Part shown: positions 273 to 30,115 of the stretch, piece after piece
Numbering within the stretch: position 1 is the stretch's first letter
How the letters are laid out: each line of letters starts with the position of its first letter
Program-made: the position numbers and the translations under genes
NCBI GenBank assembly: GCA_017860255.1
Contig: JAFNAR010000023.1
Span: 1 to 42,558 of the forward strand
Length of the DNA: 42,558 nucleotides
Direction of reading: 5' to 3'
From: Bacteroidota bacterium
GTDB taxonomy: Bacteria > Bacteroidota > Bacteroidia > Bacteroidales > P3
Notes under the pieces: model-generated
Databases searched by the model: none
What the model was told of the DNA's origin: nothing
What the model saw: only the letters and a program-made list of their open reading frames with translations

Positions 273-384
273 TTCTTCTTCTGTCCTTACTTTTTTCTTG
301 ATAAAAAAGTAACAAAAAATCAAGACTGTTCACAAAAAGCTAAAAATTGCAGCCTTGAACTAAAAGTTTATAAACTCGCTTCGA

Positions 385-486
385 AGTGAAAAGGTAAAAG
401 TGAATAGTGAAAAGTGAAAAGTGAAGAGTTTCTTCCCCTTTAGGGGGGAGGGGTAAATATTAGTGAAGAGTGAAAAGTGAAGAGTT
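385..486 (+). repeat. GTGAAAA / GTGAAGA short tandem repeats
   Basis: Heptamer-like units GTGAAAA, GTGAATA and GTGAAGA recur through 385-430 and again at 463-486, on either side of the second CCCCTTTAGGGG copy. The units are short, imperfect and lack unique spacers, so this is low-complexity DNA rather than a CRISPR array. Confidence 0.6.
435..457 (+). repeat. CCCCTTTAGGGG element, copy 2
   Basis: Second copy of the element at 203. The core is 435-446, followed by GGAGGGGTAAA. It is preceded by GTGAAGAGTTTCTT, the same lead-in as copy 3, so the repeated unit is longer than the core and includes the GTGAARA block. Confidence 0.7.
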
Positions 487-490
487 TCCT

Positions 491-515
491 CCCCTTTAGG
501 GGAATGATGGGTAAA
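491..515 (+). repeat. CCCCTTTAGGGG element, copy 3
   Basis: Third copy, with the core at 491-502 followed by AATGATGGGTAAA. The spacing between copies 2 and 3 (56 bases) and the shared GTGAAGAGTTTC lead-in suggest a local tandem duplication. Confidence 0.7.
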
Positions 516-682
516 CACACATAGGCTCTGCTCTACGCTGGGGAAACAATTCTATTAAATTTAAGTAAAAAATAAGTGGTAAAAGGTAAGGGTTTTGGGT
601 GTAAATGTGCTGTTTTTTTGATTATTTATATATATGATAATTAGTGAAATGAGATTAATAAGGAAAATATTTCATCAAATTT

Positions 683-714
683 TTTGGAAAAGCTTAATTT
701 TTGTTGTATCTTCG
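683..714 (+). promoter_or_regulatory. Bacteroidota-type promoter of the histidine kinase
   Basis: TTTG at 683-686, a 20-base spacer and TATCTTCG at 707-714 fit the Bacteroidota promoter pattern (TTTG, about 20 bases, TAnnTTTG), with one substitution in the -7 box. The start codon follows about 28 bases later. Confidence 0.6.
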
Positions 715-742
715 CATGTTAATTCACTTTGAGTAATCATAT

Positions 743-3406
743 ATGCAGACTATTAAACTTGTTAAAACAACTTATAGGTTAGTTGTGATAATGGTTCTAA
801 TCATTGTCCCAATAATTGCCTTTGCTTCAAATCCTAAACAAAAAACTGTTCTCTATGTTAGCTCTTTTGCTGAGTCTACTGTTTGGTCTCAGAAAACAGA
901 AGAGTCTCTTTTAAAAACTTTCCAAAGTGAAAACTATAATATAAATCTACTACGTCTTTTTTTGGATGAGGAAAAAACTCCAAGGCTTGAAGACAGAATA
1001 AAAATTCTTAGAAATTTCTTTAAAAATAATAAGGAAAAGATTGATGTTATTGTTGTTTTTGATTATGGTGCAACTAAGGCTTTTCTTAATTATTCTGATC
1101 CCATAGTTTCTAAAATTCCTATTATTTTTGCTTCGGAACTGGAAAAGGATACTGAAATAAAGTATAATAATATTACTGGTGTTGCTTTTGATTATGGTGT
1201 TGGTCAAACTTATAAATATGGATTAAAGATTTTTCCTGATACTAAAAAGGTATATGTTTGGGCTGATAATAGTCCTACGGGTAAGCTTTTTATTGAGGAG
1301 GCTATGGCTAATTTGAAGGGCTATAATCCTGATGTTGAAATTGAGTATGGTTTGAATGTTGGGAGTTTGGAAGAGCTGAGAAAGAAGTGCAAGAGTTTGG
1401 ATTCTAATTCTTTTGTTATTTTTGGTACTTGGTCTTTGGATTCTTTGGGCAGGAAGTATAGTGATGAGATTCTTGCTAATATATTTTTTAAGGATGTTAA
1501 GGTTCCAATTTTTTGTACTTATGAGGAGAGAATAGGTAATGGTTTCATTGGTGGTTTTGTGCAAACGCCAGAGGGTAATGCAATTTCTGCTGCAAGAAAA
1601 GCTATTAGAATTTTTAATGGTGAGTTTGTTGATAGAATGGTTATTGAGCATATTGCTCCAACTCCAATTTATGATATAAGAGGTATTGTTAAGTATGATG
1701 GTAATATTAAAGCGATTCCAAGTAGTTCGGTATTAGTTAATCGTTTTTCTGGTTATTTTTTAAAATATCATATTTTCCTGATACCAATTTTAGCTTTAAT
1801 TTTTGTATGTATGTTCTTCCTCTATTACTTTATTTTACAGAGATACAGGAATAGAAAGTTAAAAAAATCGTTGAAGGAGAAAGAGGTTAGTGAAAAGAAT
1901 TTGCAGGAAAATGTAAAAATTCTATCTTCTGCTATGCCTTCTTTTAGAATTCTTTCTTGGATTTTTAATGACAGAACAAAGATTTTCAAATATGGTGTTA
2001 CTGATGAAAATGGTATTTTAGAGATTAATCAAGAGGGTGATTTATCTATTGCAAAATCTTTTGTTAGTAAAGAGTTTGAGGATAAATTTATGGATTTCTT
2101 TTACAAATTGGATTTTGTAAAAGATGTGCATGAGTTTCATCTTGAATATTTTGGTCGTATTCCAGGTGAAGTAAAGGATTCGTGGTGGGAGATTAAGGGC
2201 AATATTAAAGAGTGTGAGGACTCAGAGGGTAAATATAAGATTATAAATGCTATACATATTAATATTCAAAGGTATAAGCAAATTGAGATTAGGCTCAATG
2301 AAGCTTTAGATAGAGCAATTAGGAGTGATAAGTTAAAATCTAATTTTATTGCAAATATTACTCACGAAATCAGAACTCCTTTAAATGCTATTACTGGTTT
2401 TGCTAATCTTATTCATTCCGATATTGAAGAGGATATGAGAATTGAATACTCTAATATTATTAAAGAAAATAGTGATAAGCTTATTGATATTATTAATGAT
2501 ATTATTCTTATTAGTGAAATTCAATCGGGTTATTTTGAACATAAAATGGTGGTTTTAGACCTTAGTCAATATATTACAGAACTTGACAGTATGTTCCGCT
2601 TCCGTTTCCCTTCAAACATTGAGTTTATTGTTGAAAATCCATATCAATCATGTATTGTTGAGGTTGATAAAGATAGACTTTTCCAAATTATTAAAATATT
2701 TATTGATAATGCCATTAAGTTTACTCAACAAGGATTTGTAAAGCTTGGATATGTGGTAGAAGATAATGGTGTTAAGTATTATTGTCAGGATAGTGGTATA
2801 GGTATTAAAGAGGAAGATAAGGATAATATTTTTACTCTTTTTGAAAAAGTTGATTCAAACAAACAAGGAACAGGAATAGGACTTGGCATTGTTAAATCTA
2901 TTGTTGAGAAGATGAATGGAAGATATGGATTGGAATCGGAATTTGGTAAGGGTAGTTATTTCTGGTTTTGGTTGCCAAGCAATACAATTGTTATTGATAA
3001 TGAGTCAAAACAAAGCTATGTTGAGATTGATAATATTATGGAGACAAAGCAGAAGGTTTTGATTGTTGAAAATGATAATTCAACTTCATCACTGTTGGAA
3101 GAAAATGATTTTAGCTCCTATTATGAATTAAATACTTCCAATCCATTGATTGAAAATATTATTGATTCTATTTCTCAAATTAATCCTAAGTTAATTATTC
3201 TTGCTCAAAAAGCACAATATTTAGATGACTATAATACTTTTAAACAATTAAAATTAGAGTATCCTTCAATTCCAGTAATTATTATTTCTGAACAATTGCT
3301 TATTCACGAAAAAAATAAACTAATTAAGTCTGGTTGTAATAAATTTGTTGAATTACCGATTGATGTTGAGAGTTTAAAGAGAAAAATAAATAAACTAATT
3401 GGCTAA
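743..3406 (+). CDS. Membrane sensor histidine kinase with ABC-substrate-binding-like sensor and degenerate receiver
   Basis: This 887-residue protein has an N-terminal membrane anchor or signal (about 13-29), a long extracytoplasmic region (about 35-320) resembling the ABC substrate-binding sensor fold (KTVLYVSSF start), a second membrane segment (about 343-365), a PAS-like region (about 395-525), a dimerisation/phosphoacceptor domain with THEIRTPLNA (H541), and an ATPase domain with N box DNAIKF (N656), DSGIGI and GTGIGLGIVKS. The C-terminal receiver-like domain (about 770-887) has Ala821 at the phospho-acceptor Asp position and Leu871 at the conserved Lys position, so it probably cannot be phosphorylated. 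No response regulator gene is adjacent, so the partner is unknown. The last 12 bases overlap the convergent MATE gene. The ligand cannot be named from sequence. Confidence 0.9.
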   Translation: MQTIKLVKTTYRLVVIMVLIIVPIIAFASNPKQKTVLYVSSFAESTVWSQKTEESLLKTFQSENYNINLLRLFLDEEKTPRLEDRIKILRNFFKNNKEKIDVIVVFDYGATKAFLNYSDPIVSKIPIIFASELEKDTEIKYNNITGVAFDYGVGQTYKYGLKIFPDTKKVYVWADNSPTGKLFIEEAMANLKGYNPDVEIEYGLNVGSLEELRKKCKSLDSNSFVIFGTWSLDSLGRKYSDEILANIFFKDVKVPIFCTYEERIGNGFIGGFVQTPEGNAISAARKAIRIFNGEFVDRMVIEHIAPTPIYDIRGIVKYDGNIKAIPSSSVLVNRFSGYFLKYHIFLIPILALIFVCMFFLYYFILQRYRNRKLKKSLKEKEVSEKNLQENVKILSSAMPSFRILSWIFNDRTKIFKYGVTDENGILEINQEGDLSIAKSFVSKEFEDKFMDFFYKLDFVKDVHEFHLEYFGRIPGEVKDSWWEIKGNIKECEDSEGKYKIINAIHINIQRYKQIEIRLNEALDRAIRSDKLKSNFIANITHEIRTPLNAITGFANLIHSDIEEDMRIEYSNIIKENSDKLIDIINDIILISEIQSGYFEHKMVVLDLSQYITELDSMFRFRFPSNIEFIVENPYQSCIVEVDKDRLFQIIKIFIDNAIKFTQQGFVKLGYVVEDNGVKYYCQDSGIGIKEEDKDNIFTLFEKVDSNKQGTGIGLGIVKSIVEKMNGRYGLESEFGKGSYFWFWLPSNTIVIDNESKQSYVEIDNIMETKQKVLIVENDNSTSSLLEENDFSSYYELNTSNPLIENIIDSISQINPKLIILAQKAQYLDDYNTFKQLKLEYPSIPVIIISEQLLIHEKNKLIKSGCNKFVELPIDVESLKRKINKLIG

Positions 3407-4744
3407 GGCTTTAAGTTGTTTTACTTGTGCAATAACTAAAAAGGTTGTTATTATAGTTGAAACAATATCGCTTATTGGCATTGCCATCCACACTCCTTTT
3501 ATTCCCAAAAAATTAGGTAGAATAATAAGTAATGGTATTAGAAGTATTACTTGTCGTGTTAAGGAAAGAAATATTGATTTTCTTGCCTTGCCTATTGACT
3601 GGAAGAAATTGGATGAAACAATTTGAAAACCTGCAATAGGATAAACAATAAACACTATTCTAAATCCTTTAATTGCTATATCAACTAATTCGTGGTCTGT
3701 TGTGAAAGCCATACTTATTGCTTTTGGGAAAAGCTCCACTGCTGCAAATGCAATCAACATAACCAAAACTCCCCATTTAACTGCTTTATAGTAGGTTTGT
3801 AAAACTCTATCATAGTGTTTAGCTCCATAGTTGTAGCCAACAATTGGTTGCATTCCCTGTGTTATACCCAAAACAATCATCACAAAGATAAAAGCAACAC
3901 GATTAATTATTCCATAAGCTCCAATTGCAAGGTCTCCTCCAAATTTCTGAAGGCTATAATTTATCAATACAACAACAAAACAAGCTGCTGCATTCATCAA
4001 AAAAGGAGATAAACCGATTGAGAATATATCAAAAATAATCTTTCCATTAAAATGAAATATCTCTCTTGAAAAGTAAATTACCTTATTCCTTTTCATATAG
4101 ATAATTATAAGCCAAATGAGAGATATAAACTGTGATATCACTGTTGCCCATGCTGCTCCTGCAATACCCCATTCAAAAACAAAGATAAATATTGAAACCA
4201 AAATGATGTTGATTCCAACAGAAAATATGGTAACCAGCATTGCAAGTTGCGGATTTCCTGATGAACGTACAATGGCGTTAAGTCCAAAGAACAGGTGAGT
4301 TATTATGTTACCAAAAAGTATGATAACCATAAAGTCACTTGCATATTTTATTGTTTGGTCGCTTCCTCCAAAAAAATATAAAATATCATCTAAGAAGGGT
4401 AGGGTGAAGAGTGTGAATAGTGATCCAATAATTATGCTTAATATTACCACATTACCTAAAACATTTCTTGCATAGTTGTGGTCTTTTCTTCCTAAACTGA
4501 TTGACACTAATGTTGCTCCTCCAACACCAACCAGTGTGCCAAAGGCTGCCGAAAGATTCATTAAGGGAAAGGTTAGTGCTAAGCCTGATATTGCTAATGC
4601 TCCAAGTTTTTGACCAATAAAAATGCTATCAATAATGTTGTATAAAGACGAAGCAATCATAGCAATAATTGCAGGAAAAGCATACCTACGTAATAAACAT
4701 CCTATATCGTCTCTTTCTAAAAGAAGGGATTTATCTTCACTCAT
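3395..4744 (-). CDS. MATE family efflux transporter
   Basis: This 449-residue, strongly hydrophobic protein fits the usual length of a 12-helix MATE exporter, which pumps drugs or metabolites out using a Na+ or H+ gradient. Visible family features are the N-terminal PAIIAMIASSLYNIIDSIFI segment, a second-half repeat with GITQGMQPIVGYNYGA, and polar residues inside the helices. It is the last gene of the minus-strand cluster, 64 bases after mtgA, with a possible promoter of its own at 4756-4763. Its stop overlaps the end of the convergent kinase gene by 12 bases. Substrate is unknown. Confidence 0.9.
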   Translation of the reverse strand: MSEDKSLLLERDDIGCLLRRYAFPAIIAMIASSLYNIIDSIFIGQKLGALAISGLALTFPLMNLSAAFGTLVGVGGATLVSISLGRKDHNYARNVLGNVVILSIIIGSLFTLFTLPFLDDILYFFGGSDQTIKYASDFMVIILFGNIITHLFFGLNAIVRSSGNPQLAMLVTIFSVGINIILVSIFIFVFEWGIAGAAWATVISQFISLIWLIIIYMKRNKVIYFSREIFHFNGKIIFDIFSIGLSPFLMNAAACFVVVLINYSLQKFGGDLAIGAYGIINRVAFIFVMIVLGITQGMQPIVGYNYGAKHYDRVLQTYYKAVKWGVLVMLIAFAAVELFPKAISMAFTTDHELVDIAIKGFRIVFIVYPIAGFQIVSSNFFQSIGKARKSIFLSLTRQVILLIPLLIILPNFLGIKGVWMAMPISDIVSTIITTFLVIAQVKQLKALAN

Positions 4745-4755
4745 AATTAAGTTTG

Positions 4756-4763
4756 CAAAATTA
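4756..4763 (-). promoter_or_regulatory. Possible -7 box before the MATE gene
   Basis: On the minus strand TAATTTTG fits TAnnTTTG and lies 12 bases upstream of the MATE start. No clear TTTG is found at the expected upstream distance, so this is a weak candidate. Confidence 0.35.
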
Positions 4764-4808
4764 CAAAATAATTCAACAAACTTACTTTAAGCTATCAATT
4801 AGTTTTTT

Positions 4809-5555
4809 TTATTTCTTGAACCTTATTCTTCCGTGTTTGTCCATCATATACATTACCCTGTTGGCTCTTGCATTAAGATAAGGAGTTGGATGGGCTGCAT
4901 TTCTTTTTAGTGGTGAAGGTAAAACAGAAGCCAAGAGGGCAGATTCTCTTTTTGTGAGTTTTTTTGCACTCTTGCCAAAATAGTGGTTAGCTGCTGCCTC
5001 CACTCCATAAATACCATCTCCAAACTCAATAACATTCAAATAAACCTCCATAATTCTTTCCTTAGGCCAAAAGAATTCAATAAGAATGGTATAGTATGTT
5101 TCTAAGCCTTTTCTAATCCAGCTTCTTCTATTCCAAAGGAATACATTTTTTGCTGTTTGTTGGCTAATGGTGCTGCCTCCTCTAATTTTTTTACCTCTTT
5201 TGTTATATTCAATTGCTCTTTCAATTGCCTGGGTGTCAAATCCATTATGTTTTAAAAACATATTATCTTCCGAAGCAACAACGGCACGAATCATATTATT
5301 GTTAATATCATCAATGTCAACCCAGTCTTTCTCCAATCTTACTTCTCTTTTTGATGAAAAGGTTTGTTCAATTGTTCTTTGAACCATTAGAATGGTGATA
5401 GGAGGATTAATGAACCTGTATACAATGGTCATAAATATTGAAAATGCAAAGAAACATAGTGTTGTTACCCAAATAACTTTCCACAGTTTTCCCCAAAAAC
5501 CTTTCTTTTTTGTTTTCTTTGTCTTTCTTTTTGTTGCTGTTTTTTCGTTAACCAT
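4809..5555 (-). CDS. mtgA: Monofunctional peptidoglycan glycosyltransferase (GT51)
   Basis: The 248-residue enzyme polymerises lipid II into glycan strands at the outer face of the inner membrane. A Lys-rich cytoplasmic tail (1-26) precedes one membrane helix (about 27-47) and a single GT51 domain. Diagnostic motifs are VVASEDNMFLKHNG (catalytic Glu96), RGGSTISQQTAKN and KERIMEVYLNVIEFGDGIYG. There is no transpeptidase domain, and the length is typical of MtgA rather than a class A PBP. It follows the pseudouridine synthase gene by 16 bases and is probably cotranscribed with the phospholipid genes upstream. Confidence 0.93.
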   Translation of the reverse strand: MVNEKTATKRKTKKTKKKGFWGKLWKVIWVTTLCFFAFSIFMTIVYRFINPPITILMVQRTIEQTFSSKREVRLEKDWVDIDDINNNMIRAVVASEDNMFLKHNGFDTQAIERAIEYNKRGKKIRGGSTISQQTAKNVFLWNRRSWIRKGLETYYTILIEFFWPKERIMEVYLNVIEFGDGIYGVEAAANHYFGKSAKKLTKRESALLASVLPSPLKRNAAHPTPYLNARANRVMYMMDKHGRIRFKK

Positions 5556-5571
5556 ATTATCTTTAAATGCT

Positions 5572-6261
5572 TTATTTTACGTTCTCTTCAAACCATTTCC
5601 ACAGGTTTTCATCTGGACATGGTGCTATGAAAGTCATTTTTTGTTTTAGTGTAGGATGTTCAAAGGTCAGTTCTCTTGCGTGAAGTGATATTGAACTTAT
5701 TTTGTTGCTTCTTCCAAATCCATATTTTAAATCTCCTTTTATTGGGCATCCAATATTTGCCAATTGAACTCTAATTTGATGGTGTCGTCCTGTGTAAAGT
5801 TCAACCTCCAGCAGACTGTAAAATTCACTTTGAGCCAATAGACGGTATTTCAGTTCTGCAAGTGAGCCTTTTTGAGTGTCTTTGGTAACATAGGATTTGT
5901 TTTGCTTTTCATCCTTAATCAAATAGTTGCTTAAAACATCTTCCTCTTTTGGAGGTGGGTTTCTAACAATTGCCCAATATTTCTTTGTGAAGAGCTTATC
6001 GTGTATTTGTTTGTTTAGTCTAACAAGTGCTTTCTCTGTTTTGGTGAATACAACAGCTCCACTAACTGGCCTGTCCAAACGATGAACAACTCCACAGTAA
6101 ATATTGCCAGGTTTGTTGTATTTCTTCCTTAGATAATCTTTAATGTAATCAACCAGACTATCGTCTTTGGTTTTGTCCCCATGAACAATTTGAGAGTTCT
6201 TCTTATTGATTACTAATATATGATTATCCTCATATATTATTTGTTTTTCAAAATCTTCCAT
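5572..6261 (-). CDS. RluA-family RNA pseudouridine synthase
   Basis: The 229-residue protein contains the RluA signature HRLDRPVSGAVVF with catalytic Asp63, followed by KKYWAIV and RHHQIRVQLA, all typical of enzymes that isomerise uridine in rRNA or tRNA. It starts directly with the catalytic domain and has no N-terminal S4 RNA-binding domain, like the shorter RluA/TruC-type members. The target nucleotide cannot be told. Its ATG overlaps the psd stop codon (TAATG), which implies translational coupling to phosphatidylserine decarboxylase. Confidence 0.9.
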   Translation of the reverse strand: MEDFEKQIIYEDNHILVINKKNSQIVHGDKTKDDSLVDYIKDYLRKKYNKPGNIYCGVVHRLDRPVSGAVVFTKTEKALVRLNKQIHDKLFTKKYWAIVRNPPPKEEDVLSNYLIKDEKQNKSYVTKDTQKGSLAELKYRLLAQSEFYSLLEVELYTGRHHQIRVQLANIGCPIKGDLKYGFGRSNKISSISLHARELTFEHPTLKQKMTFIAPCPDENLWKWFEENVK

Positions 6262-6917
6262 TACAATGTTGCCAAAACAGATAATCCTCCTTTAACCTTG
6301 TCTTCAAGTTCTGCATGTACGTTTGCACTCAAAGGAACAAAAACATCAACTCTTGAACCAAATTTAATAAATCCTAATTCATCTCCCTGATGTACTTCCT
6401 GACCTTCTTTGGAATAGCAAACAATTCTTCTTGCCAATGCTCCTGCAATTTGACGAACAACAATCTTATCTCCTTTGGCAGTTTCAATGCAAACGGTTGT
6501 TCTTTCATTTAGGGTTGAACTTTTAGGATGCTTTGCAATTAAGTATTTTCCGTTATGATAATTGGTATATATTATTTTACCTGAAACAGGATAGCGATTA
6601 ACATGAACATTGTTAGGAGACATAAAGGTTGAGATTTGAATACATTCTGTTTTCAAAACTTCTGGTTCGTAAACTTGTTCAACAACAACAATTGTCCCAT
6701 CTGCACTACCAATTACTTGGTCTTCACTATGCAATAGTTCTCTTTTAGGAATTCTGAAAAATCGTATAACAATAAGTGCAACTATTACTATAAGAGCAGT
6801 TAATGAATACCAATACCAATCCCAATCATCAATAAAATAATTCATTGCACTAATAATTACAATTGCTAAAAGCATTGTGTAAGCTATGATTCTGTAACCT
6901 TCTTTATGTATATACAT
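6261..6917 (-). CDS. psd: Phosphatidylserine decarboxylase proenzyme
   Basis: The 218-residue protein matches the short phosphatidylserine decarboxylase group. It has two N-terminal membrane helices (about 8-26 and 33-52), the central FMSPNNVHVNRYPVSG segment and the C-terminal FGSRVDVFVP motif. By family knowledge the chain self-cleaves between Gly187 and Ser188, leaving a pyruvoyl cofactor on the alpha chain. It converts phosphatidylserine to phosphatidylethanolamine in the inner membrane. It lies 13 bases after cdsA, which makes the CDP-diacylglycerol precursor. Phosphatidylserine synthase is not in this window. Confidence 0.93.
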   Translation of the reverse strand: MYIHKEGYRIIAYTMLLAIVIISAMNYFIDDWDWYWYSLTALIVIVALIVIRFFRIPKRELLHSEDQVIGSADGTIVVVEQVYEPEVLKTECIQISTFMSPNNVHVNRYPVSGKIIYTNYHNGKYLIAKHPKSSTLNERTTVCIETAKGDKIVVRQIAGALARRIVCYSKEGQEVHQGDELGFIKFGSRVDVFVPLSANVHAELEDKVKGGLSVLATL

Positions 6918-6930
6918 TATTTAATGTGTG

Positions 6931-7755
6931 TTAGTTTAGACGTAAAAATAAGTAAATAAAAATAAATGGTAGGGTTATAAAGAGTATATCGAAACGATCC
7001 AATATACCTCCATGTCCAGGTAGTATTTTGCCACTATCCTTAACTCCCATTTGTCTTTTAAACATTGATTCAACCAAATCTCCAAATGTTCCAATTATGC
7101 AAATTATTGCTCCAATTATCATCCAATCAAAAAACTCTAATGGGGAGTTTGTTAACTTAAATAATATAATGGAAGCAATTTGAACTGCAACAACTCCTCC
7201 AAAAAATCCTTCCCAGCTTTTCTTAGGGGAAATTCTTTCAAAGAGTCTTCTCTTTCCAAACTTTATCCCTACCAAATAGGCAAAGGTGTCATTGCACCAA
7301 GCCAATATAAAAACACTTAGTAGAATAATTGGTATAAAGTTATTGGGCAAAAACTGAGGATTTACAATAAAGTTTGTTAAGCCCAAAGGAATAATAATAT
7401 AAACTACTCCTAAAATGGTGTATGCGATATTGGTGAATGGGTTTTCTTTTTTGCGAAAGAGTTCCATTATAAATATTGCAAAACATAGGAAAAGAGAAAT
7501 TGTTATTGAGTATTTGGTTTCTATTTGAAATGCTTTTAATGCAAAAAAACTATATGTTGAAATGGCTAACAAGTAGCCCATAGGTTTTAATGGAGAAATT
7601 TGACTGAGTTTTGAGTTATTATAAAATTCATATAGAGCAATTATTGAAATAACTCCAAAGAATATGGCAAGAACAATGGGGTTGATGATTATTGCAAAAA
7701 TAACTGCTAATACATAAACTGCACCTGTAATTGTTCTTTGAGTAATATTTTTCAT
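6931..7755 (-). CDS. cdsA: Phosphatidate cytidylyltransferase
   Basis: The 274-residue polytopic membrane protein makes CDP-diacylglycerol from phosphatidic acid and CTP. The C-terminal CDP-diglyceride synthetase signature is visible at about 240-259 (DSGKILPGHGGILDRFD), preceded by GTFGDLVESMFKR and KKSWEGFFGG, which are also conserved in the family. About seven or eight hydrophobic helices are seen. It starts 4 bases after the LUD-domain gene and is followed closely by psd, forming a phospholipid synthesis block. Confidence 0.95.
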   Translation of the reverse strand: MKNITQRTITGAVYVLAVIFAIIINPIVLAIFFGVISIIALYEFYNNSKLSQISPLKPMGYLLAISTYSFFALKAFQIETKYSITISLFLCFAIFIMELFRKKENPFTNIAYTILGVVYIIIPLGLTNFIVNPQFLPNNFIPIILLSVFILAWCNDTFAYLVGIKFGKRRLFERISPKKSWEGFFGGVVAVQIASIILFKLTNSPLEFFDWMIIGAIICIIGTFGDLVESMFKRQMGVKDSGKILPGHGGILDRFDILFITLPFIFIYLFLRLN

Positions 7756-7759
7756 GATT

Positions 7760-8368
7760 CTAATTGGCTTGAATTAGGTTTTCTACTGTGAAAAGATAGA
7801 GCTCTTTAATCTCTTCTTTCAAAATATAACTTGGATTAAGTGTGAAAATATACTTAGGGATATTTTCAGAAGTTTCATTGAGTGCTGTTGCTAAATCTAA
7901 TGCAATTTGTGAAGTAAAGACAATGATAATGAATATGCTTGGAAAGGTTTCAAACTTAGAGTTGTCAATTTGATTGGAGGTAATGGTTATTAGGCTATTT
8001 CTTGCTGAAACACTATGACATAAGGTTATGCCAACATTTTTTGTTCCATCAAAACCATCATTGCCTTGAATTCCATTGGTACCTAAAAAATCCTTTAAAT
8101 TGTTACCCAAAACAGAAATATCATTTGCCCAATTTCTATATTCTATCATGGAGTGGAGTTTATTTATCAAGTCGTTTTCATTCCTGCAATAAATAAACTT
8201 TCCTCCACATTGAACTATATTTTCAGCAAATATCATTAATGGGTCATCATCAATGGTGCTATAAACATCTGCTTCCATATCTATATTTGGATATGGAATA
8301 TCTGCCTTTTCTAATACAGAATTACGCAATAGCTTTAATATAGCTCCTTTTTCGGAATTCCCTCTCAT
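7760..8368 (-). CDS. LUD-domain (LutC/YkgG-like) protein
   Basis: This 202-residue protein resembles the LUD domain of LutC/YkgG proteins. An N-terminal helical part is followed by a region with VGITLCHSVSARNSLIT, where family members usually read GIT.A..AIAETGS, and a FPSIFIIIV strand. LutC takes part in lactate oxidation with LutA and LutB, but neither partner is nearby and the LUD motif is divergent, so that role should not be assumed. Its position between ftsH and cdsA, 12 and 4 bases away, suggests a housekeeping function tied to the membrane cluster. Confidence 0.7.
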   Translation of the reverse strand: MRGNSEKGAILKLLRNSVLEKADIPYPNIDMEADVYSTIDDDPLMIFAENIVQCGGKFIYCRNENDLINKLHSMIEYRNWANDISVLGNNLKDFLGTNGIQGNDGFDGTKNVGITLCHSVSARNSLITITSNQIDNSKFETFPSIFIIIVFTSQIALDLATALNETSENIPKYIFTLNPSYILKEEIKELYLFTVENLIQAN

Positions 8369-8380
8369 GAGTTTTTATTT

Positions 8381-10498
8381 CTAATTTATTTCTTCTTCGG
8401 AAATAGTATTAGAATCTGTTTTGTTTTCTTCTATATTTGAATTTGTGTTGTTATTGGCGCTTTCTTCAACATTTTCAAAAGGACGTTTGCCAAAAATCAA
8501 TTCCAAATCTTCTCTAAATATTACTTCTTTCTCAACAAGTTGCATTGCAAGTTTGTCAAGCTTTTCTATATTTGTTGTAAGTATTTCCTTAGCTTTTTGA
8601 TAAGCCTCTTCAATCATTTTGTGAATTTCATTATCAATGCTTTCAGCTGTTTTTTCGGAGAAAGGTTTTGTAAATCCATATTCGCTTTGTCCTGTTGAGT
8701 CGTAGTAGCTTATATTCCCTATTTTTTCATTTAGTCCATAGTATGCCACCATTGAATAGGCCATCTTGGTTGTTCTTTCCAAATCATTTAATGCTCCTGT
8801 TGACACTTCTCCAAAAACAATATCTTCTGCTGCTCTTCCTCCCAATAGAGAAATCATTTCGTGCATAAGTTGTGATTTGGTTGTTATTTGTCTTTCCTCT
8901 GGCAAATACCATGCTGCTCCAAGTGCTTGTCCTCTTGGAACAATGGTTACTTTAACCAATGGACTTGCATGTTCAAGCATCCAGCTAACTGAAGCATGTC
9001 CTGCTTCATGATATGCTATTGTTTTCTTTTCGTTTGGAGCTATTACTTTATTCTTCTTTTCCAATCCTCCAATAATTCTGTCAACTGCATCAAGGAAATC
9101 CTGTTTGCCTATTAGCTTTTTGTTGTGTCTTGCTGCAATTAAGGCTGATTCATTACAAACATTTGCTATGTCTGCTCCTGAAAATCCTGGAGTTTGTTTT
9201 GCAAGAAATTCAATATCTACGCTTTTCTTGTCATATTTCAGGTTCTTGGTGTGAACCTTAAATATTGCTTTTCTTTCTTCAAGGTCTGGTAGGTCAACAT
9301 GAATTTGTCTATCAAATCTTCCAGCTCTTAGAAGTGCTTTATCTAAAACATCTGCTCTATTGGTTGCTGCAAGTATAATTACTCCTGCATTTGTTCCAAA
9401 TCCATCCATTTCTGTTAGGAGTTGGTTTAATGTGTTTTCTCTTTCGTCATTAGAGCCTGATGCAAGATTTTTTCCTCTTGCTCTACCTATTGCATCAATT
9501 TCATCAATGAAAATAATACATGGTGCTTTTTCTTTTGCTGTTTTAAACAAGTCTCTAACTCTTGATGCTCCAACTCCAACAAACATTTCAACAAAATCAG
9601 ATCCTGAAAGAGAGAAGAAAGGTACTTTGGCTTCTCCTGCAACTGCTTTTGCTAATAATGTTTTTCCTGTTCCTGGAGGACCAACTAAAAGGGCTCCCTT
9701 TGGAATTTTACCTCCAAGGTCTGTATATTTCTTAGGATTTTTCAAAAAGTCAACAATTTCCATTACTTCAAGTTTGGCTCCTTCCAATCCTGCAACATCT
9801 TCAAAGGTTGTCTTAACATCATTCTCTTTGTCGTAAAGTTTGGCTTTTGATTTTCCAACATTGAAAATTCCTCCACCAATTCCTCCACCACCTGAAGATG
9901 AATTTCCTCCTCTCATCATTCTAAAGAAAACTATCCAAATAACAATTAGAATAACAAAAGGTAGTATGAATGAAAGACTTTCTCCCCAAAAGTTTTTCCT
10001 TGTTTCAGGACTAAAAATAATTCTACGTGAACTAATAATCTCACTCTTTTTAACCTCACTTTCAACACCTATGGTATCTCTTGCTATCCATTGGTTTTCA
10101 ATATCTTTTAGTTGTTCCCTAAATTGTGAAAATTCTACAAATTTATAAACATAAAAGCCTTCTTTGGTGTTTGTTTGTGTGCCCAAAAATCCTGATTTTG
10201 GTTTTAAATCATTATATAATGAATCACTCTTTATTGCATCTGGTTTAATATATACCTCTGCAAACTCTTTATTTACAACTGTAATTTTAGAGTAATCTTT
10301 CTTCAAAAGGACTTGTTGGAGTTTCTCCCATTGAATTTCTCTGTTTATTTTTGAATCTCCATTATCGGTAAAGAACATTATTCCTAAGAAAACGAAGACT
10401 GCTATATAAATCCAATAAATATTAAAGGTGAATTTTGGTTTCCCTTTAATTGGATTTTTAAAATTGCTTTTATTTTTGTTTGTTTGTTTGTTCGCCAT
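8381..10498 (-). CDS. ftsH: ATP-dependent zinc metalloprotease FtsH
   Basis: The 705-residue membrane AAA+ protease degrades misassembled membrane proteins and regulatory substrates. Order of parts: N-terminal helix (about 28-44), periplasmic domain, second helix (about 175-193), Gly/Ser-rich linker, AAA+ domain with Walker A GPPGTGKT (273-280) and Walker B IIFIDEIDAIG, then the M41 protease with zinc motif HEAGH (497-501) and LNDLERTTKMA. The tail of about 30 residues is rich in Asn, Glu and Ser and varies between species. It starts 12 bases after rsfS ends. Confidence 0.97.
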   Translation of the reverse strand: MANKQTNKNKSNFKNPIKGKPKFTFNIYWIYIAVFVFLGIMFFTDNGDSKINREIQWEKLQQVLLKKDYSKITVVNKEFAEVYIKPDAIKSDSLYNDLKPKSGFLGTQTNTKEGFYVYKFVEFSQFREQLKDIENQWIARDTIGVESEVKKSEIISSRRIIFSPETRKNFWGESLSFILPFVILIVIWIVFFRMMRGGNSSSGGGGIGGGIFNVGKSKAKLYDKENDVKTTFEDVAGLEGAKLEVMEIVDFLKNPKKYTDLGGKIPKGALLVGPPGTGKTLLAKAVAGEAKVPFFSLSGSDFVEMFVGVGASRVRDLFKTAKEKAPCIIFIDEIDAIGRARGKNLASGSNDERENTLNQLLTEMDGFGTNAGVIILAATNRADVLDKALLRAGRFDRQIHVDLPDLEERKAIFKVHTKNLKYDKKSVDIEFLAKQTPGFSGADIANVCNESALIAARHNKKLIGKQDFLDAVDRIIGGLEKKNKVIAPNEKKTIAYHEAGHASVSWMLEHASPLVKVTIVPRGQALGAAWYLPEERQITTKSQLMHEMISLLGGRAAEDIVFGEVSTGALNDLERTTKMAYSMVAYYGLNEKIGNISYYDSTGQSEYGFTKPFSEKTAESIDNEIHKMIEEAYQKAKEILTTNIEKLDKLAMQLVEKEVIFREDLELIFGKRPFENVEESANNNTNSNIEENKTDSNTISEEEIN

Positions 10499-25278: not shown

Positions 25279-25295
25279 ATAATAAATTGATTGAG

Positions 25296-25595
25296 ATGGA
25301 AAATAAAGAACAAAAAATGGATATTGAATTACCTGTTGAAGTAGCACCAGGAATTTACACTAACCTACAACTAATAACTCATTCCTCAACCGAGTTTATT
25401 ATAGATTTTATTCAAGTTTTGCCAGGAGTTCCAAAGGCACAAGTTCGCTCTCGTGCAATACTTTCTCCTCAACATGCAAAAAGATTTCTTTATGCATTGA
25501 AAGAGAATATTGAAAAGTACGAACAGCAAAATGGAGTAATAACTGAACCTGATCAAGCTATTCCATATCAAATGAACCCAATGGGAAAAGCATAA
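25296..25595 (+). CDS. DUF3467 protein
   Basis: This 99-residue acidic protein is 17 bases after rpoC. It matches the DUF3467 family by its IYTNLQLITHSSTEFIIDF, PQHAKRFLYALKENI and surrounding residues, a family typically found right after rpoC in Bacteroidota. Its function is not established. I chose the ATG at 25296; TTG 25287 is the alternative. Cotranscription with rpoBC and the strong terminator directly after suggest a role linked to transcription, which is inference only. Confidence 0.88.
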   Translation: MENKEQKMDIELPVEVAPGIYTNLQLITHSSTEFIIDFIQVLPGVPKAQVRSRAILSPQHAKRFLYALKENIEKYEQQNGVITEPDQAIPYQMNPMGKA

Positions 25596-25658: not shown

Positions 25659-25982
25659 GTTCACTTAAATGATTAATAAAAGTATTCTTTAGCCTTATTA
25701 CCAAAAACATCAATCATAGCTAAAAATAAGTCAAGTTTATTTTAAAATAAGTCAAGGATATTTTTATTTAAGTCCCTTATATTTTTATTTATGATTGACT
25801 TATTTTTCATTATGATTGAGTTTTTTATAACTCCTTATTTCATTTTACTAAAACGCTGTTTTAATTTACTAACTCTTTACTTTAATAAATTCTTTCTTTG
25901 TTTTATTTTACTAAAGTAAGGTTTTATTCTAACCTTGTTTTTTTTGCTTATATAAGTAGGGGAAAAACAAAGGATGATAATT

Positions 25983-26039
25983 GATATAAAAAGTTAATAA
26001 GTTAATAAAAAGAGCCCAAAAATGAAAAGTGTTTTTGAA
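25983..26039 (+). repeat. Island direct repeat, copy 1
   Basis: This 57-base segment matches 27466-27520 with few changes. A 22-base core (25993-26014) is identical and contains the tandem octamer GTTAATAA twice. The two copies bracket both unrecognised secreted-protein genes. Confidence 0.8.
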
Positions 26040-26070
26040 ACAGATAGAATAAAATACTTCTATTTAAAAT

Positions 26071-26091
26071 AAAACCATTAACTTTGGTTTT
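26071..26091 (+). promoter_or_regulatory. Inverted repeat over a -7-like box
   Basis: AAAACCA (26071-26077) and TGGTTTT (26085-26091) are perfect inverted repeats 7 bases apart. TAACTTTG (26079-26086), a TAnnTTTG match, lies between and over them, so this may be a promoter with an operator. No TTTG was found at the right distance upstream. Confidence 0.35.
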
Positions 26092-26158
26092 GGAAATTAT
26101 ATACAAAATAATCCAGTAAAAGAAGAAATTCCAGCACAACGTGAATATAAATTGCAAT

Positions 26159-26731
26159 ATGAAAAGAATAATAATATTTTTAGGATTGATACTTTGTTGT
26201 TTATTTTATGCAAAAGCACAGAATGACTCAACAATAAATAATAAAAAAGCTAAAATTGACACTAATTTTATTTACAAGATAACTGAACATCCAAGTTTAG
26301 GTAGATGGTATGTATTTCCAGTAACATTAGATTGTAATGGGAAGAAAATTAAAGTAATAGTTGATAATGGATATTTCTACAGGTGTTTAGAAAAGAAATT
26401 TGGATTTACACAAGAAGAATATAAAGCATATATTAGAGATGTTTTGATAAATGAAAAAACTATACCATTTTGTTTAGAAGAACGAATTGATTGCAAGTTA
26501 TCAAAGATACTTATGGAAGAAATAGAATATTATAACAATACATACATAAATGAGTATAGAAAAGATATGGATAAATTCTTAAAATGGGCTTTTGATGAAA
26601 ATAGTATTTTGACAAAAGAAAAATTTACAGGTATGATAGTTGAAATATTATTCGAAAATAATATAGCTATTAAACCATCTTGCGAAGCTCCTTATTATGT
26701 TTATTATAAAAGTGATGAAATTCCTTGGTAA
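26159..26731 (+). CDS. Unrecognised secreted protein
   Basis: I do not recognise this 190-residue protein. It begins with a clear signal peptide (MKRIIIFLGLILCCLFYAKA, cleavage near residue 20), so it is exported. The mature part is rich in Lys, Glu, Ile and aromatic residues and contains four Cys after the signal. The ATG at 26159 is preferred over GTG 26141 because it places the signal peptide at the start. It sits in the island bracketed by direct repeats and is 69 bases before a second small secreted protein. The motif TTTGGAGTTG occurs 17 bases after its stop. Confidence 0.75.
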   Translation: MKRIIIFLGLILCCLFYAKAQNDSTINNKKAKIDTNFIYKITEHPSLGRWYVFPVTLDCNGKKIKVIVDNGYFYRCLEKKFGFTQEEYKAYIRDVLINEKTIPFCLEERIDCKLSKILMEEIEYYNNTYINEYRKDMDKFLKWAFDENSILTKEKFTGMIVEILFENNIAIKPSCEAPYYVYYKSDEIPW

Positions 26732-26747
26732 AGGGTAATGTCTCAGA

Positions 26748-26780
26748 TTTGGAGTTGATTATATAATTCGTTGAAAACAT
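26748..26780 (+). repeat. Post-gene repeat, copy 1
   Basis: TTTGGAGTTG followed by an AT-rich stretch and TTGAAAAC lies 17 bases after the stop of the first secreted-protein gene. A close relative lies 19 bases after the stop of the second. The shared 3' flank suggests that the two genes arose or moved as similar cassettes. Confidence 0.55.
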
Positions 26781-26800
26781 TTAGAATAAAATAATTAGAT

Positions 26801-27367
26801 ATGAAAAAGAATTTGTTGTTTTGTTTTTTGCTTATAAGTAGTTTTGCTTTTAGTTCTAATTTAACAAATAAGGATACAATACCTGATAAACTAATAACTA
26901 AGATTAATGGAGGATATTTATTTCAATATTACACGCCAGTAAAACAAACACGTGATGAAGAACGATATTTTCCAATGTTTTTTAAAATGATTTTTCCAAA
27001 GTCATATAAGAGTTTCAGTATTTTCCCAGAACAACATTTCTTTTTTAAGTTCAAAAGCAAACAATATATTGTTATTTATTATGACTATCACGACTATTTT
27101 GATACAGTTTCTCAGAATATTGATACTGTGTATTTGGTTAATAAATCTGTTATTGATAGTATTTTTGAAAGCTATGCCAGTGCGGAGATGAGAGAATATA
27201 TTAGAAAAGAGATTAGAATAAGAGAAGATAGATTTAATAAAATAGTCAGAAGAAAAGGAGTAACTTTTTTATTGTGTAATATAAAAGAAGAAGAGTTAAA
27301 GATGTTTGAACAAAGTATTGACTCTTTTAATATTATTAGACCTTATAGAATAGACAAGAGGTTATAA
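26801..27367 (+). CDS. Unrecognised secreted protein
   Basis: I do not recognise this 188-residue protein. It has a signal peptide (about 1-18, MKKNLLFCFLLISSFAFS) and a basic, aromatic-rich mature part (YFPMFFKMIFPKSYKSF, then IVIYYDYHDYFD). The C-terminal half is probably helical and charged. It has no clear similarity to its neighbour at 26159, though both are of like size and exported. It is probably cotranscribed with that gene. Copy 2 of the island direct repeat begins 99 bases after its stop. Confidence 0.75.
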   Translation: MKKNLLFCFLLISSFAFSSNLTNKDTIPDKLITKINGGYLFQYYTPVKQTRDEERYFPMFFKMIFPKSYKSFSIFPEQHFFFKFKSKQYIVIYYDYHDYFDTVSQNIDTVYLVNKSVIDSIFESYASAEMREYIRKEIRIREDRFNKIVRRKGVTFLLCNIKEEELKMFEQSIDSFNIIRPYRIDKRL

Positions 27368-27385
27368 TATGATAGTTATATAGTA

Positions 27386-27419
27386 TTTGGAGTTGGGAAT
27401 GTAATTAATTGAGAAAACA
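27386..27419 (+). repeat. Post-gene repeat, copy 2
   Basis: TTTGGAGTTG at 27386-27395, then TAATTAATTGAGAAAAC, is related to 26748-26780 and lies at almost the same distance (19 against 17 bases) from the preceding stop codon. Confidence 0.55.
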
Positions 27420-27430
27420 AGGTTTAATTA

Positions 27431-27470
27431 ATATCTATTTTATCTCTTACTTGAAAAAGAGAATAGATAT
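27431..27470 (+). promoter_or_regulatory. Hairpin at the edge of direct repeat copy 2
   Basis: ATATCTAT (27431-27438) pairs with ATAGATAT (27463-27470), and the inner TCTCTT (27443-27448) pairs with AAGAGA (27457-27462), leaving a four-base bulge. No T-tract follows on the plus strand. Its 3' arm overlaps the start of the direct repeat. Confidence 0.5.
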
Positions 27471-27520
27471 AAAAGTTAATAAGTTAATAAAAAGAGGTCA
27501 AAAAAGAAAAGTGTCTTGAA
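27466..27520 (+). repeat. Island direct repeat, copy 2
   Basis: This 55-base segment matches 25983-26039; the identical 22-base core is 27475-27496. The copies start 1483 bases apart and enclose two secreted-protein genes. Confidence 0.8.
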
Positions 27521-27819
27521 TAGTTGTCGAAAAATACTTTTCAAAAAAGGGTGTTTTTTATTAACTTTATAGACTATCTCCCCATCGAAAAAGGATAATT
27601 ATCTCGTACTATTTTCCAATAATGTTTTTTTTGGTAGTGCGTGATATGATTTCAGCACTATGAATTGGATAATCTTATAATGTATTTGCTTGGTGTAAAA
27701 GATTTGAGGTTGATTTTCTGGGTAGTTCGGTAACATTGATTATTAAAATTAATTTTCTCCAAAAAATCTAAGATTATAATATTGTGGTTTTTTAGTGCTG
27801 GTCTGTATTTTTAAGGGGA

Positions 27820-27925: not shown

Positions 27926-30115
27926 ATGTCAAAAATGCGTTTTTTTGCACTTAAAGAGCTTATGAATCGTAAGCCTATTGAAGTTAATTTACCTTCTAAA
28001 AACCTTTCAGATTATTATTCTTCTTTGGTTTTTGATAAGAAAACTATGCAGGAATATTTGCCTAAAGAGGCTTATATGGCTGTTGTTGAAGCCTCAGAAA
28101 ATGGTAAGCCTATTTCGAGAGATAAAGCCGATTTGATTGCTAATGCAATGAGAAATTGGGCTAAGGGTTTTGGTGTAACTCACTATACTCACTGGTTTCA
28201 GCCTTTAACTGATGGTACTGCAGAAAAGCATGATGGCTTTATTGATTTTAGTAGTCAGGGTGATGTTATTGAACGATTCTCAGGGAAACTATTAGTTCAA
28301 CAGGAACCTGATGCTTCTTCTTTCCCTAATGGTGGGATAAGAAATACTTTTGAGGCAAGAGGATATACTGCTTGGGATGTTTCTTCTCCTGCTTTTATTG
28401 TGGATGACACTCTTTGTATTCCAACAATTTTTGTTTCCTATACTGGTGATGCTCTTGACTACAAAACTCCTCTTTTAAAGGCGTTGAATGCTGTTGATAA
28501 GGCAGCAACTGATGTTGCAAGATTGTTTGATAAAAATGTTAATAAGGTTTCTGTTAATTTGGGATGGGAGCAAGAGTATTTTTTGGTTGATAGTGCTTTA
28601 TATAATGCAAGACCTGACCTTTGTTTGACAGGAAGAACACTTATGGGGCATTCTTCTGCAAAGGATCAACAATTGGATGACCATTATTTTGGCTCAATAC
28701 CTCAAAGGGTAATATGTTTTATGAAGGATTTGGAAATTGAATGTCATAAACTTGGGATACCTGTTAAAACTTGTCATAATGAGGTTGCTCCCAATCAATT
28801 TGAATTAGCTCCAATTTTCGAAGATGCTAACCTTTCAAATGACCATAATCAGTTGGTGATGGATTTGATGAAAAGGATTGCCAACAAACATAATTTTAAT
28901 GTTCTTTTCCACGAAAAACCTTTTAGCGGGATTAATGGCTCAGGAAAACATAATAACTGGTCTTTGCAAACAGACACTGGAGTAAATCTTTTTGCACCAG
29001 GAAAGAACCCAAAAGCAAATATGCTGTTTCTTACTTTCATTGTCAATACTGTAATGATGGTGTATAAGAATCAAGATATTTTAAGAGCTTCAATAGTTAG
29101 TGCTTCCAATTCCTATAGATTAGGAGCAAATGAGGCTCCTCCATTGATTCTTTCAGTTTTCTTGGGAAAATACTTAACCAATATGTTGGAATCCTTAGAA
29201 GAGAAAGTTGGTGAAAAGAAAATGACTGCTGAGCAAAAGACTGCATTAAAATTGGGTATTGGACGTATTCCAGAAATACTTTTGGATAATACTGATAGAA
29301 ATAGAACATCACCTTTTGCATTTACAGGTAATAGATTTGAGTTCCGTGCAGCAGGCTCTTCTTCCAATTGTGCTGCTCCAATGATTGCAATTAATGCTGC
29401 TATGGCTCATCAATTAAATCAATTTAAGAAGGATGTAGATTTGTTGATGGATAAGGGAGTTGGTAAGGATGAAGCAATTTTTAAGGTGCTTAAGAAAATG
29501 ATAAAAGAATCCAAGCCAATTTGTTTTGAGGGAGATGGATATTCTGATAATTGGGCAAAAGAAGCAAAGAAAAGAGGTTTGACAAATATTGAATCTGTGC
29601 CAGAGGCATTACTAAAATATGAATCAGAATTGGCTAAAGAAGTTTTTGTTGGAGAAGGAGTGTTTAATGAAACAGAGTTAGTAAGCAGGGTGGAAGTAGA
29701 GCTTGAGAAATTTGTAAAAAAGATACAGATTGAAAGTAGGGTTTTAGGTGATTTGACCATTAACCACATAGTACCTATTGCAGTTACTTATCAAAATCGT
29801 TTGCTTGAAAACTTAATTGGACTAAAACAAATATTTGATAAGGAAGAATATGAAGAATTGTCTTTTGCAAGAAAGCAATTGGTTAAAGAAATATCAAAAT
29901 ATGTTTCAGAGATAAAATTGCAAGTAAAGGAAATGACCAATCAAAGAAAAATAGCCAATAGGATAATAAATATGAAAGAAAAAGCATTTGCTTATTCCAA
30001 TAATGTTAAGCCTTACTTAGAATCAATTAGAGAATGTGTTGATAATTTGGAAATGGAGATTGATAATGAGATTTGGCCATTGCCAAAATATAGAGAATTA
30101 TTGTTTGCAAAATAA
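27926..30115 (+). CDS. glnN: Type III glutamine synthetase
   Basis: The 729-residue enzyme makes glutamine from glutamate, ammonia and ATP in the cytoplasm. The length and the long N- and C-terminal parts mark the GSIII (GlnN) class, common in Bacteroidota. Visible blocks are GVTHYTHWFQPLT, WEQEYFLVD, NEVAPNQFELAP, the ATP-binding GSGKHNNWSLQTDTG and RTSPFAFTGNRFEFRA with a substrate-binding Arg. It stands alone with its own promoter, followed by a weak terminator. No ammonium transporter or PII gene lies beside it. Confidence 0.97.
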   Translation: MSKMRFFALKELMNRKPIEVNLPSKNLSDYYSSLVFDKKTMQEYLPKEAYMAVVEASENGKPISRDKADLIANAMRNWAKGFGVTHYTHWFQPLTDGTAEKHDGFIDFSSQGDVIERFSGKLLVQQEPDASSFPNGGIRNTFEARGYTAWDVSSPAFIVDDTLCIPTIFVSYTGDALDYKTPLLKALNAVDKAATDVARLFDKNVNKVSVNLGWEQEYFLVDSALYNARPDLCLTGRTLMGHSSAKDQQLDDHYFGSIPQRVICFMKDLEIECHKLGIPVKTCHNEVAPNQFELAPIFEDANLSNDHNQLVMDLMKRIANKHNFNVLFHEKPFSGINGSGKHNNWSLQTDTGVNLFAPGKNPKANMLFLTFIVNTVMMVYKNQDILRASIVSASNSYRLGANEAPPLILSVFLGKYLTNMLESLEEKVGEKKMTAEQKTALKLGIGRIPEILLDNTDRNRTSPFAFTGNRFEFRAAGSSSNCAAPMIAINAAMAHQLNQFKKDVDLLMDKGVGKDEAIFKVLKKMIKESKPICFEGDGYSDNWAKEAKKRGLTNIESVPEALLKYESELAKEVFVGEGVFNETELVSRVEVELEKFVKKIQIESRVLGDLTINHIVPIAVTYQNRLLENLIGLKQIFDKEEYEELSFARKQLVKEISKYVSEIKLQVKEMTNQRKIANRIINMKEKAFAYSNNVKPYLESIRECVDNLEMEIDNEIWPLPKYRELLFAK

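Follow-up and report, generated by a model that had tools for sequence, protein, structure and literature searches.

Two genes for exported proteins carry a genus-specific 3' tag shared with Rhs toxin loci and occupy an exchangeable rpoC–glnN spacer in a Bacteroidales genome

The window, i.e., the whole stretch of DNA analysed here, comprises 42,558 nucleotides of a Bacteroidales genome (assembly GCA_017860255.1, contig JAFNAR010000023.1). The island of interest is flanked on the left by rpoC and a DUF3467 gene (25287–25595) and on the right by the type III glutamine synthetase gene glnN (27926–30115), which confirms its placement between rpoBC and glnN in an earlier note on this DNA. It includes two co-directional genes, which lie on the forward strand as do the repeats, tags and relic of the island described below, and no toxin ORF is present between them. 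Gene 1 (26159–26731) and gene 2 (26801–27367) encode proteins of 190 and 188 aa, both with hydrophobic N-termini and neither with a Pfam match better than E 0.07, in agreement with their earlier description as two unassignable signal-peptide proteins of about 190 residues. The G+C contents of genes 1 and 2 are 0.24 and 0.25, compared with 0.34–0.36 for rpoC, glnN and the DUF3467 gene.

Each of the two genes is followed by a tag of about 66 nt (GGTAGTGTATCAGATTTGGAGTTGATGATGTAAGT...), which is distinct from the GTTAATAA direct repeat bracketing the genes. Tag 1 (26734–26801) lies 3 nt past the stop codon of gene 1 (E 2.8e-12 with the tag model R1) and tag 2 (27377–27439), a degenerate copy, lies 10 nt past that of gene 2 (E 1.9e-8); both are among the copies from which the model was built. 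A third, older and degenerate tag-like stretch is located before glnN (27693–27760) and is alignable in the own genome (G000) and in three relatives (G002, G006 and G010). Its positions 27693–27755 have 75% identity to strong tags (E 5e-6), whereas model R1 picked up just the copy in G002, and this weakly (E 0.028).

The direct repeat consists of a left copy (25983–26039) and a right copy (27466–27575, including a long hairpin). Its two copies align without gaps over 47 nt (25989–26035 and 27471–27517; 91% identity; start-to-start distance, 1482), and thus the bracketing repeat reported earlier exists. The identical core reported with it is also present, but its true length is 26 nt (AAAAGTTAATAAGTTAATAAAAAGAG) rather than 22. 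The tandem octamer GTTAATAAGTTAATAA has exactly two sites in the own 2.58 Mb genome, both in the island, and one further site with one mismatch. As the same pattern read backwards likewise has three sites with at most one mismatch, the 16-mer by itself carries little weight. Chance does not account for the longer match: a search with 27440–27640 recovered, besides itself, the left copy at E 2e-14, the next best match having E 0.037.

A search for further copies elsewhere, as proposed earlier, was positive. With 25940–27640 as the query, a third relative of the left copy was found in the own genome (G000:C38; 61 nt, 80% identity, E 2.7e-8), and relatives were found also in G002 and G004. These lie at L068 (G000:C38) 4909–4969, at L038 (G004:C14) and at G002:C14:83218–83278, and that at G000:C38 resembles an entire palindrome, about 100 nt long. 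In the island, a hairpin at 27466–27575 (z −4.2) has the right copy as one of its arms; the hairpin at the left copy is not significant (z −1.5).

The rpoC–glnN spacer was compared within the genus, the comparison set being the own genome and ten same-genus relatives (11 genus genomes). At the sensitivity used, the rpoC end is matched in all 11 genomes and glnN in five, and spacer contents were compared in G000, G002, G003, G006 and G010. Sister species have different cargo here between conserved flanks and outer repeats: in the sister G002, both flanks and both GTTAATAA copies are kept (aligned blocks of 83% and 90% identity), but in place of genes 1 and 2 there are two ORFs for unrelated lipoproteins (159 and 249 aa). 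Homology between the two genomes ends on the left at window position 26142, which is the end of a probable relic of the C-terminal part of a REP-associated tyrosine transposase gene (26044–26142), and restarts on the right at about 27385, within tag 2. The spacer of G003 includes ORFs of 170 and 127 aa and that of G006 a 101-aa ORF and an HU-related gene; in that of G010, no ORF of at least 50 aa is present.

The idea of an inserted cassette or a recombination-prone island, raised in the earlier note, therefore holds in part. Different cargo between the same flanks (G002, G003 and G006, with G010 near-empty) supports an exchangeable cassette in a recombination-prone spacer. The 55–57-base repeat is, however, not the exchange boundary because the cargo in G002 changes inside both copies, and the repeat was rejected for this role; instead, a different element, the 3' tag, marks the right-hand breakpoint. 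The near-empty spacer of G010 has no GTTAATAA copies as read, nor does the spacer of G006. The GTTAATAA repeats are best read as older palindromes that surround the site without delimiting it. The third suggestion of the earlier note, a regulatory element common to both genes, gained no support from these sequence comparisons.

The sequence-only model R1, built from an alignment of 18 tag copies, yields 58 rows at E ≤ 0.05 in seven of the 11 genus genomes and 37 tag copies at E ≤ 1e-5 in six of them; the 37 strong copies include the 18 building copies, and the tag counts given here leave out the other 21 of the 58 rows. In a family sample of 149 genomes, tag matches at E ≤ 1e-4 are present in six, all of this genus, and the 138 genomes outside the genus gave no match under stricter filters able to lose weak matches. 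Exact tag matches are found in the Bacteroidales MAGs UBA5371, UBA5515 and UBA4893. Among the matches listed from titles and abstract openings of the open-licence literature, no such tag is described.

The 5' edge of the tag is sharp (GGTAGTG, just past stop codons), its head is often partly duplicated and its tail diverges. The 37 strong copies form 33 clusters; for 29 of these, an ORF on the same strand ends within −40 to +150 nt. A same-strand stop codon lies within −5 to +50 nt for 25 of 33 clusters, compared with 465 of 20,000 positions drawn at random from these loci, and clusters led by copies outside the model building behave similarly (11/16). The ORFs preceding tags are mostly small, and 25 of 29 have a hydrophobic N-terminus, compared with 86 of 192 ORFs of at least 100 aa (Fisher p 1e-6), where the 192 include the tagged ORFs, signal peptides were called by a crude hydrophobicity rule, and the tagged gene of G002:C7:192192, which is cut in the locus used, is scored as failing. 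The four clusters with no ORF end in range are located in G000:C45, G000:C5, G002:C8 and G010:C35, two of them behind Cas13 loci. Tandem tags 66–70 nt apart occur in G000:C66 and G010:C36. Many tags precede a TTCTGTC-type inverted repeat and a T-run; at the two tags of the window, no such inverted repeat follows and no terminator-like site was found. Also, a weaker second tag-like copy is seen about 155 nt past several strong tags (L057:3651 and 5074, L061:4865, L066:4856 and L058:2647), suggesting a longer composite 3' region.

The tag that follows the island genes also follows small genes located directly behind the tips of Rhs toxins. Rhs core domains were found at 19 places in five of the 11 genus genomes, 18 of them above the family cut-off. 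The order Rhs tip, small gene, tag is present at all four Rhs places of G002 and at one of the two in the own genome, and four of these five small genes encode a hydrophobic N-terminus. The exception is at G002:C7, where the small gene lacks a hydrophobic N-terminus and is separated from its tag by 123 nt. At none of the 13 Rhs places in G001, G003 and G004 was a tag seen nearby, and in G006 (83% complete), G007 and G010, tags are present with no Rhs core match. In G001, which has no tag, the Rhs-linked small genes also look exported. The own genome's second Rhs gene (L166, G000:C56:18000–30000, 320–8066) encodes a protein of 2105 aa whose tip is Ntox23 (E 1.8e-29) and is followed by two paralogous lipoprotein genes (38% identical), which are likely immunity genes, with no tag match.

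Gene 2 has relatives in two other genomes among 393 of the order, in addition to one in G010. The relative in G214, from another family, is a 180-aa lipoprotein whose gene (L165:6006–6548) lies directly downstream of an Rhs-core ORF with the tip at L165:6551–7468, at a distance of 2 bp. It shares 26% identity with the gene 2 protein over 182 aa (E 2.9e-13, searched among 417 ORFs), is full-length and lies inside a row of Rhs tip modules. That in G220 is the first in a run of small exported ORFs, and that in G010 is an orphan and tagged. Gene 2 therefore belongs, as an orphan, to a family in which another member is linked to Rhs, and the sequence relationship suggests that it would encode an orphan Rhs immunity protein. 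Weak matches in G004, G005 and G042 (E 0.001–0.01) correspond to long or broken frames. Searches of viral contigs did not find the family, and searches of plasmids did not find gene 2. The G214 tip has no meaningful Pfam match; its SDAHIHP...PQPSDAD stretch resembles a JAMM metalloprotease motif. The row in G214 (L165, G214:C30:55000–67000, 3010–9169) consists of four Rhs-core tip ORFs, each preceded by about 460–540 nt of near-identical DNA; several precede a small exported ORF, and one of the tips carries a fused IstB-like end.

For gene 1, close relatives are present in two of 61 genomes including the own one, the sole other being G002, where the protein is 96% identical. This relative is located at G002:C7, a locus other than the rpoC–glnN spacer, and adjoins a paralogue of 231–243 aa, depending on the start codon. 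The shared DNA (window 26147–26730; 584 nt, 97%) corresponds to the ORF and a few leading bases and ends at the stop codon; at G002:C7, no tag follows and, in the stretch read, no GTTAATAA repeats bracket the gene. A search of 393 order genomes found only gene 1 itself, and neither these nor the 61 genomes yielded an Rhs-linked relative. The position directly downstream of a toxin tip, typical of Rhs immunity genes, is thus occupied by a member of the gene 2 family (in G214) and not by one of gene 1. Gene 1 might encode an orphan immunity protein as judged by its context, a weaker case than that for gene 2. Sequence searches of the PDB with the gene 1 family, the gene 2 family and one G214 tip returned nothing below E 0.25, and single-sequence structure models of genes 1 and 2 (mean pLDDT, 41 and 38) have no usable fold. 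None of the immunity families in Pfam fits the 26 tag-linked or related proteins, which gave one weak, unrelated match. The genomes compared are drafts, and the protein families are shallow.

The island is best explained as a short array of two orphan Rhs-type immunity genes that lack their toxins, reside in a variable spacer and are reshuffled as units of a gene and its tag, for which a probability of about two in three is estimated. Exported immunity proteins in the periplasm would block toxins from neighbours that act in or pass through this compartment. The gene-plus-tag units would travel by homologous or homology-assisted recombination. In module exchange at Rhs loci, the Rhs core would provide the left arm and the tag is a candidate for the right arm; the tag arm might also carry small genes to other tags, e.g., the old one before glnN, which could have helped to turn the spacer into a landing site. 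Relics of the REP-associated transposase upstream of some tagged genes are a possible second left arm in a few cases. As judged from these analyses, recombination of this kind would suffice to explain the data.

Integron gene cassettes, which carry a single gene and a single 3' repeat, form short arrays and are exchanged, resemble the units seen here with one gene and one 3' tag, likewise in short arrays and exchanged. The tag might accordingly be the site of an undiscovered integron-like site-specific system that captures single exported-protein genes as cassettes; its sharp 5' edge right past stop codons, its partly duplicated head, the tandem tags in G000:C66 and G010:C36 and the two-gene arrays at several sites, with a single gene per tag, are consistent with this. 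Such a system is nevertheless unlikely, as ordinary recombination can account for the data and no recombinase is found in the window among the matches listed (25 of 55 Pfam families, 29 ORFs). Moreover, unlike attC, an imperfect palindrome that folds as a single strand, the 18 aligned tags have no consensus pairs and no common fold, by which attC-type cassettes were rejected. It is similarly doubtful that a genus-specific system uses the tag as its recombination site to capture Rhs immunity genes, and perhaps other defence genes, which would constitute a scattered antidote bank with no fixed platform.

That the proteins are exported accessory proteins of an ordinary kind, with the tag as no more than a travelling 3' element, such as part of a terminator region, would agree with the inverted repeat and T-run behind many tags and with the lack of a known family for either gene. 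This is quite unlikely given the order of Rhs tip, small gene and tag at five places, the relative of gene 2 behind an Rhs tip, and the two window tags, which have no inverted repeat. Very unlikely are the two GTTAATAA repeats as ends of a composite mobile element that imported both genes: they bracket the cargo in both G000 and G002, have relatives elsewhere and do not occur in the spacers of G010 and G006 as read, but both copies stay where the cargo differs, with the breakpoints inside them, and in the stretch read around the relative of gene 1 at G002:C7, they do not flank the gene.

Two orphan Rhs-type immunity genes in such a spacer can be compared with several known systems. According to Zhang et al. 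(2012; PMC3482391), polyimmunity loci are usually single per organism, and most immunity proteins are cytoplasmic. Like these loci, the island would hold unrelated, co-directional, toxin-less immunity genes, and its content differs between close relatives (G000 and G002); unlike them, the genes here form small scattered groups, look exported and have a 3' tag in common with Rhs modules. The recombinase-associated acquired interbacterial defence (rAID) system of Bacteroidales is described as an array behind a tyrosine recombinase (PMC12247911). Similarities, by its description there, are the host order, co-oriented short genes, a conserved intergenic motif, though not necessarily the same one, and a proposed orphan immunity role; the rAID genes have about 100–300 codons with intergenic motifs, and the two genes here have 188–190 codons with a tag after each. 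Whereas rAID is described as one array behind a recombinase (PMC12247911), the genes here are scattered, and no recombinase is among the window matches listed (25 of 55 Pfam families). For orphan immunity arrays of the Vibrio cholerae T6SS, homologous or homology-assisted recombination is argued to be sufficient (PMC5361080, section 13), and for orphan Rhs modules of Salmonella, such recombination is supported (PMC3967940). Orphans here would likewise arise by recombination of toxin–immunity modules; as described there, however, the V. cholerae and Salmonella orphans stay in the toxin locus, whereas here they are also found alone between housekeeping genes. The present case differs from polyimmunity loci and rAID in the scattering over many sites, the exported-looking products and the tag by which orphans are linked to Rhs modules.

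An implication is that orphan antidotes may be dispersed among housekeeping genes and exchanged there, with no need for a single array. By means of one short tag, candidate immunity genes of the genus, which belong to no known family, could be listed without protein homology, and some of these candidates are paired with Rhs toxins by the tag. How bacteria gather immunity to rivals would thereby become directly testable.

The transposase relic was traced through other loci. The stretch 26044–26130 has 87% identity to L055:5316–5402, which runs into a reading frame matching a transposase fragment at L138; tblastn with this fragment gave no match in the window itself. Only C-terminal fragments of the gene, and no intact copy, are present in the loci read, with NCBIfam NF047646 as the best match (E 7e-9, below its cut-off). 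A relic lies upstream of tags in four of 33 clusters, compared with no match in 40 control loci (227 kb), which exclude loci fetched for the relic itself, such as L055. A further relic at L109 is outside the scored stretch, and another at L141 is beside a weak tag. The relic as a fixed part of tagged units was rejected, the cases being too few.

Exchange in place was observed also at a CRISPR locus. At one site with flanks 95–97% identical, the own genome has Cas13a (L135, G000:C45:6000–16000, 1955–5116; NF038188, E 9e-156) and the sister G002 has Cas13b (L133, G002:C8:96000–106000, 1438–4674; NF038190, E 1e-212). Homology stops at the start codon and restarts inside the last VI-A repeat, the tail of which persists behind the VI-B array in G002; this is an in-place swap of type VI subtypes.

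In addition, spacers hold short motif arrays with a period of about 21–23 nt (two helical turns) and a motif that differs per site, as at L054:1346, L056:4712, L069:4605, L133:5455, L138:4199 and window 25722–25931, where the copies are inexact (families D6 and D8). Among 23 arrays of three exact 9-mers counted in 346 kb, 15 have a period of 21–23, compared with none in a block-shuffled control.
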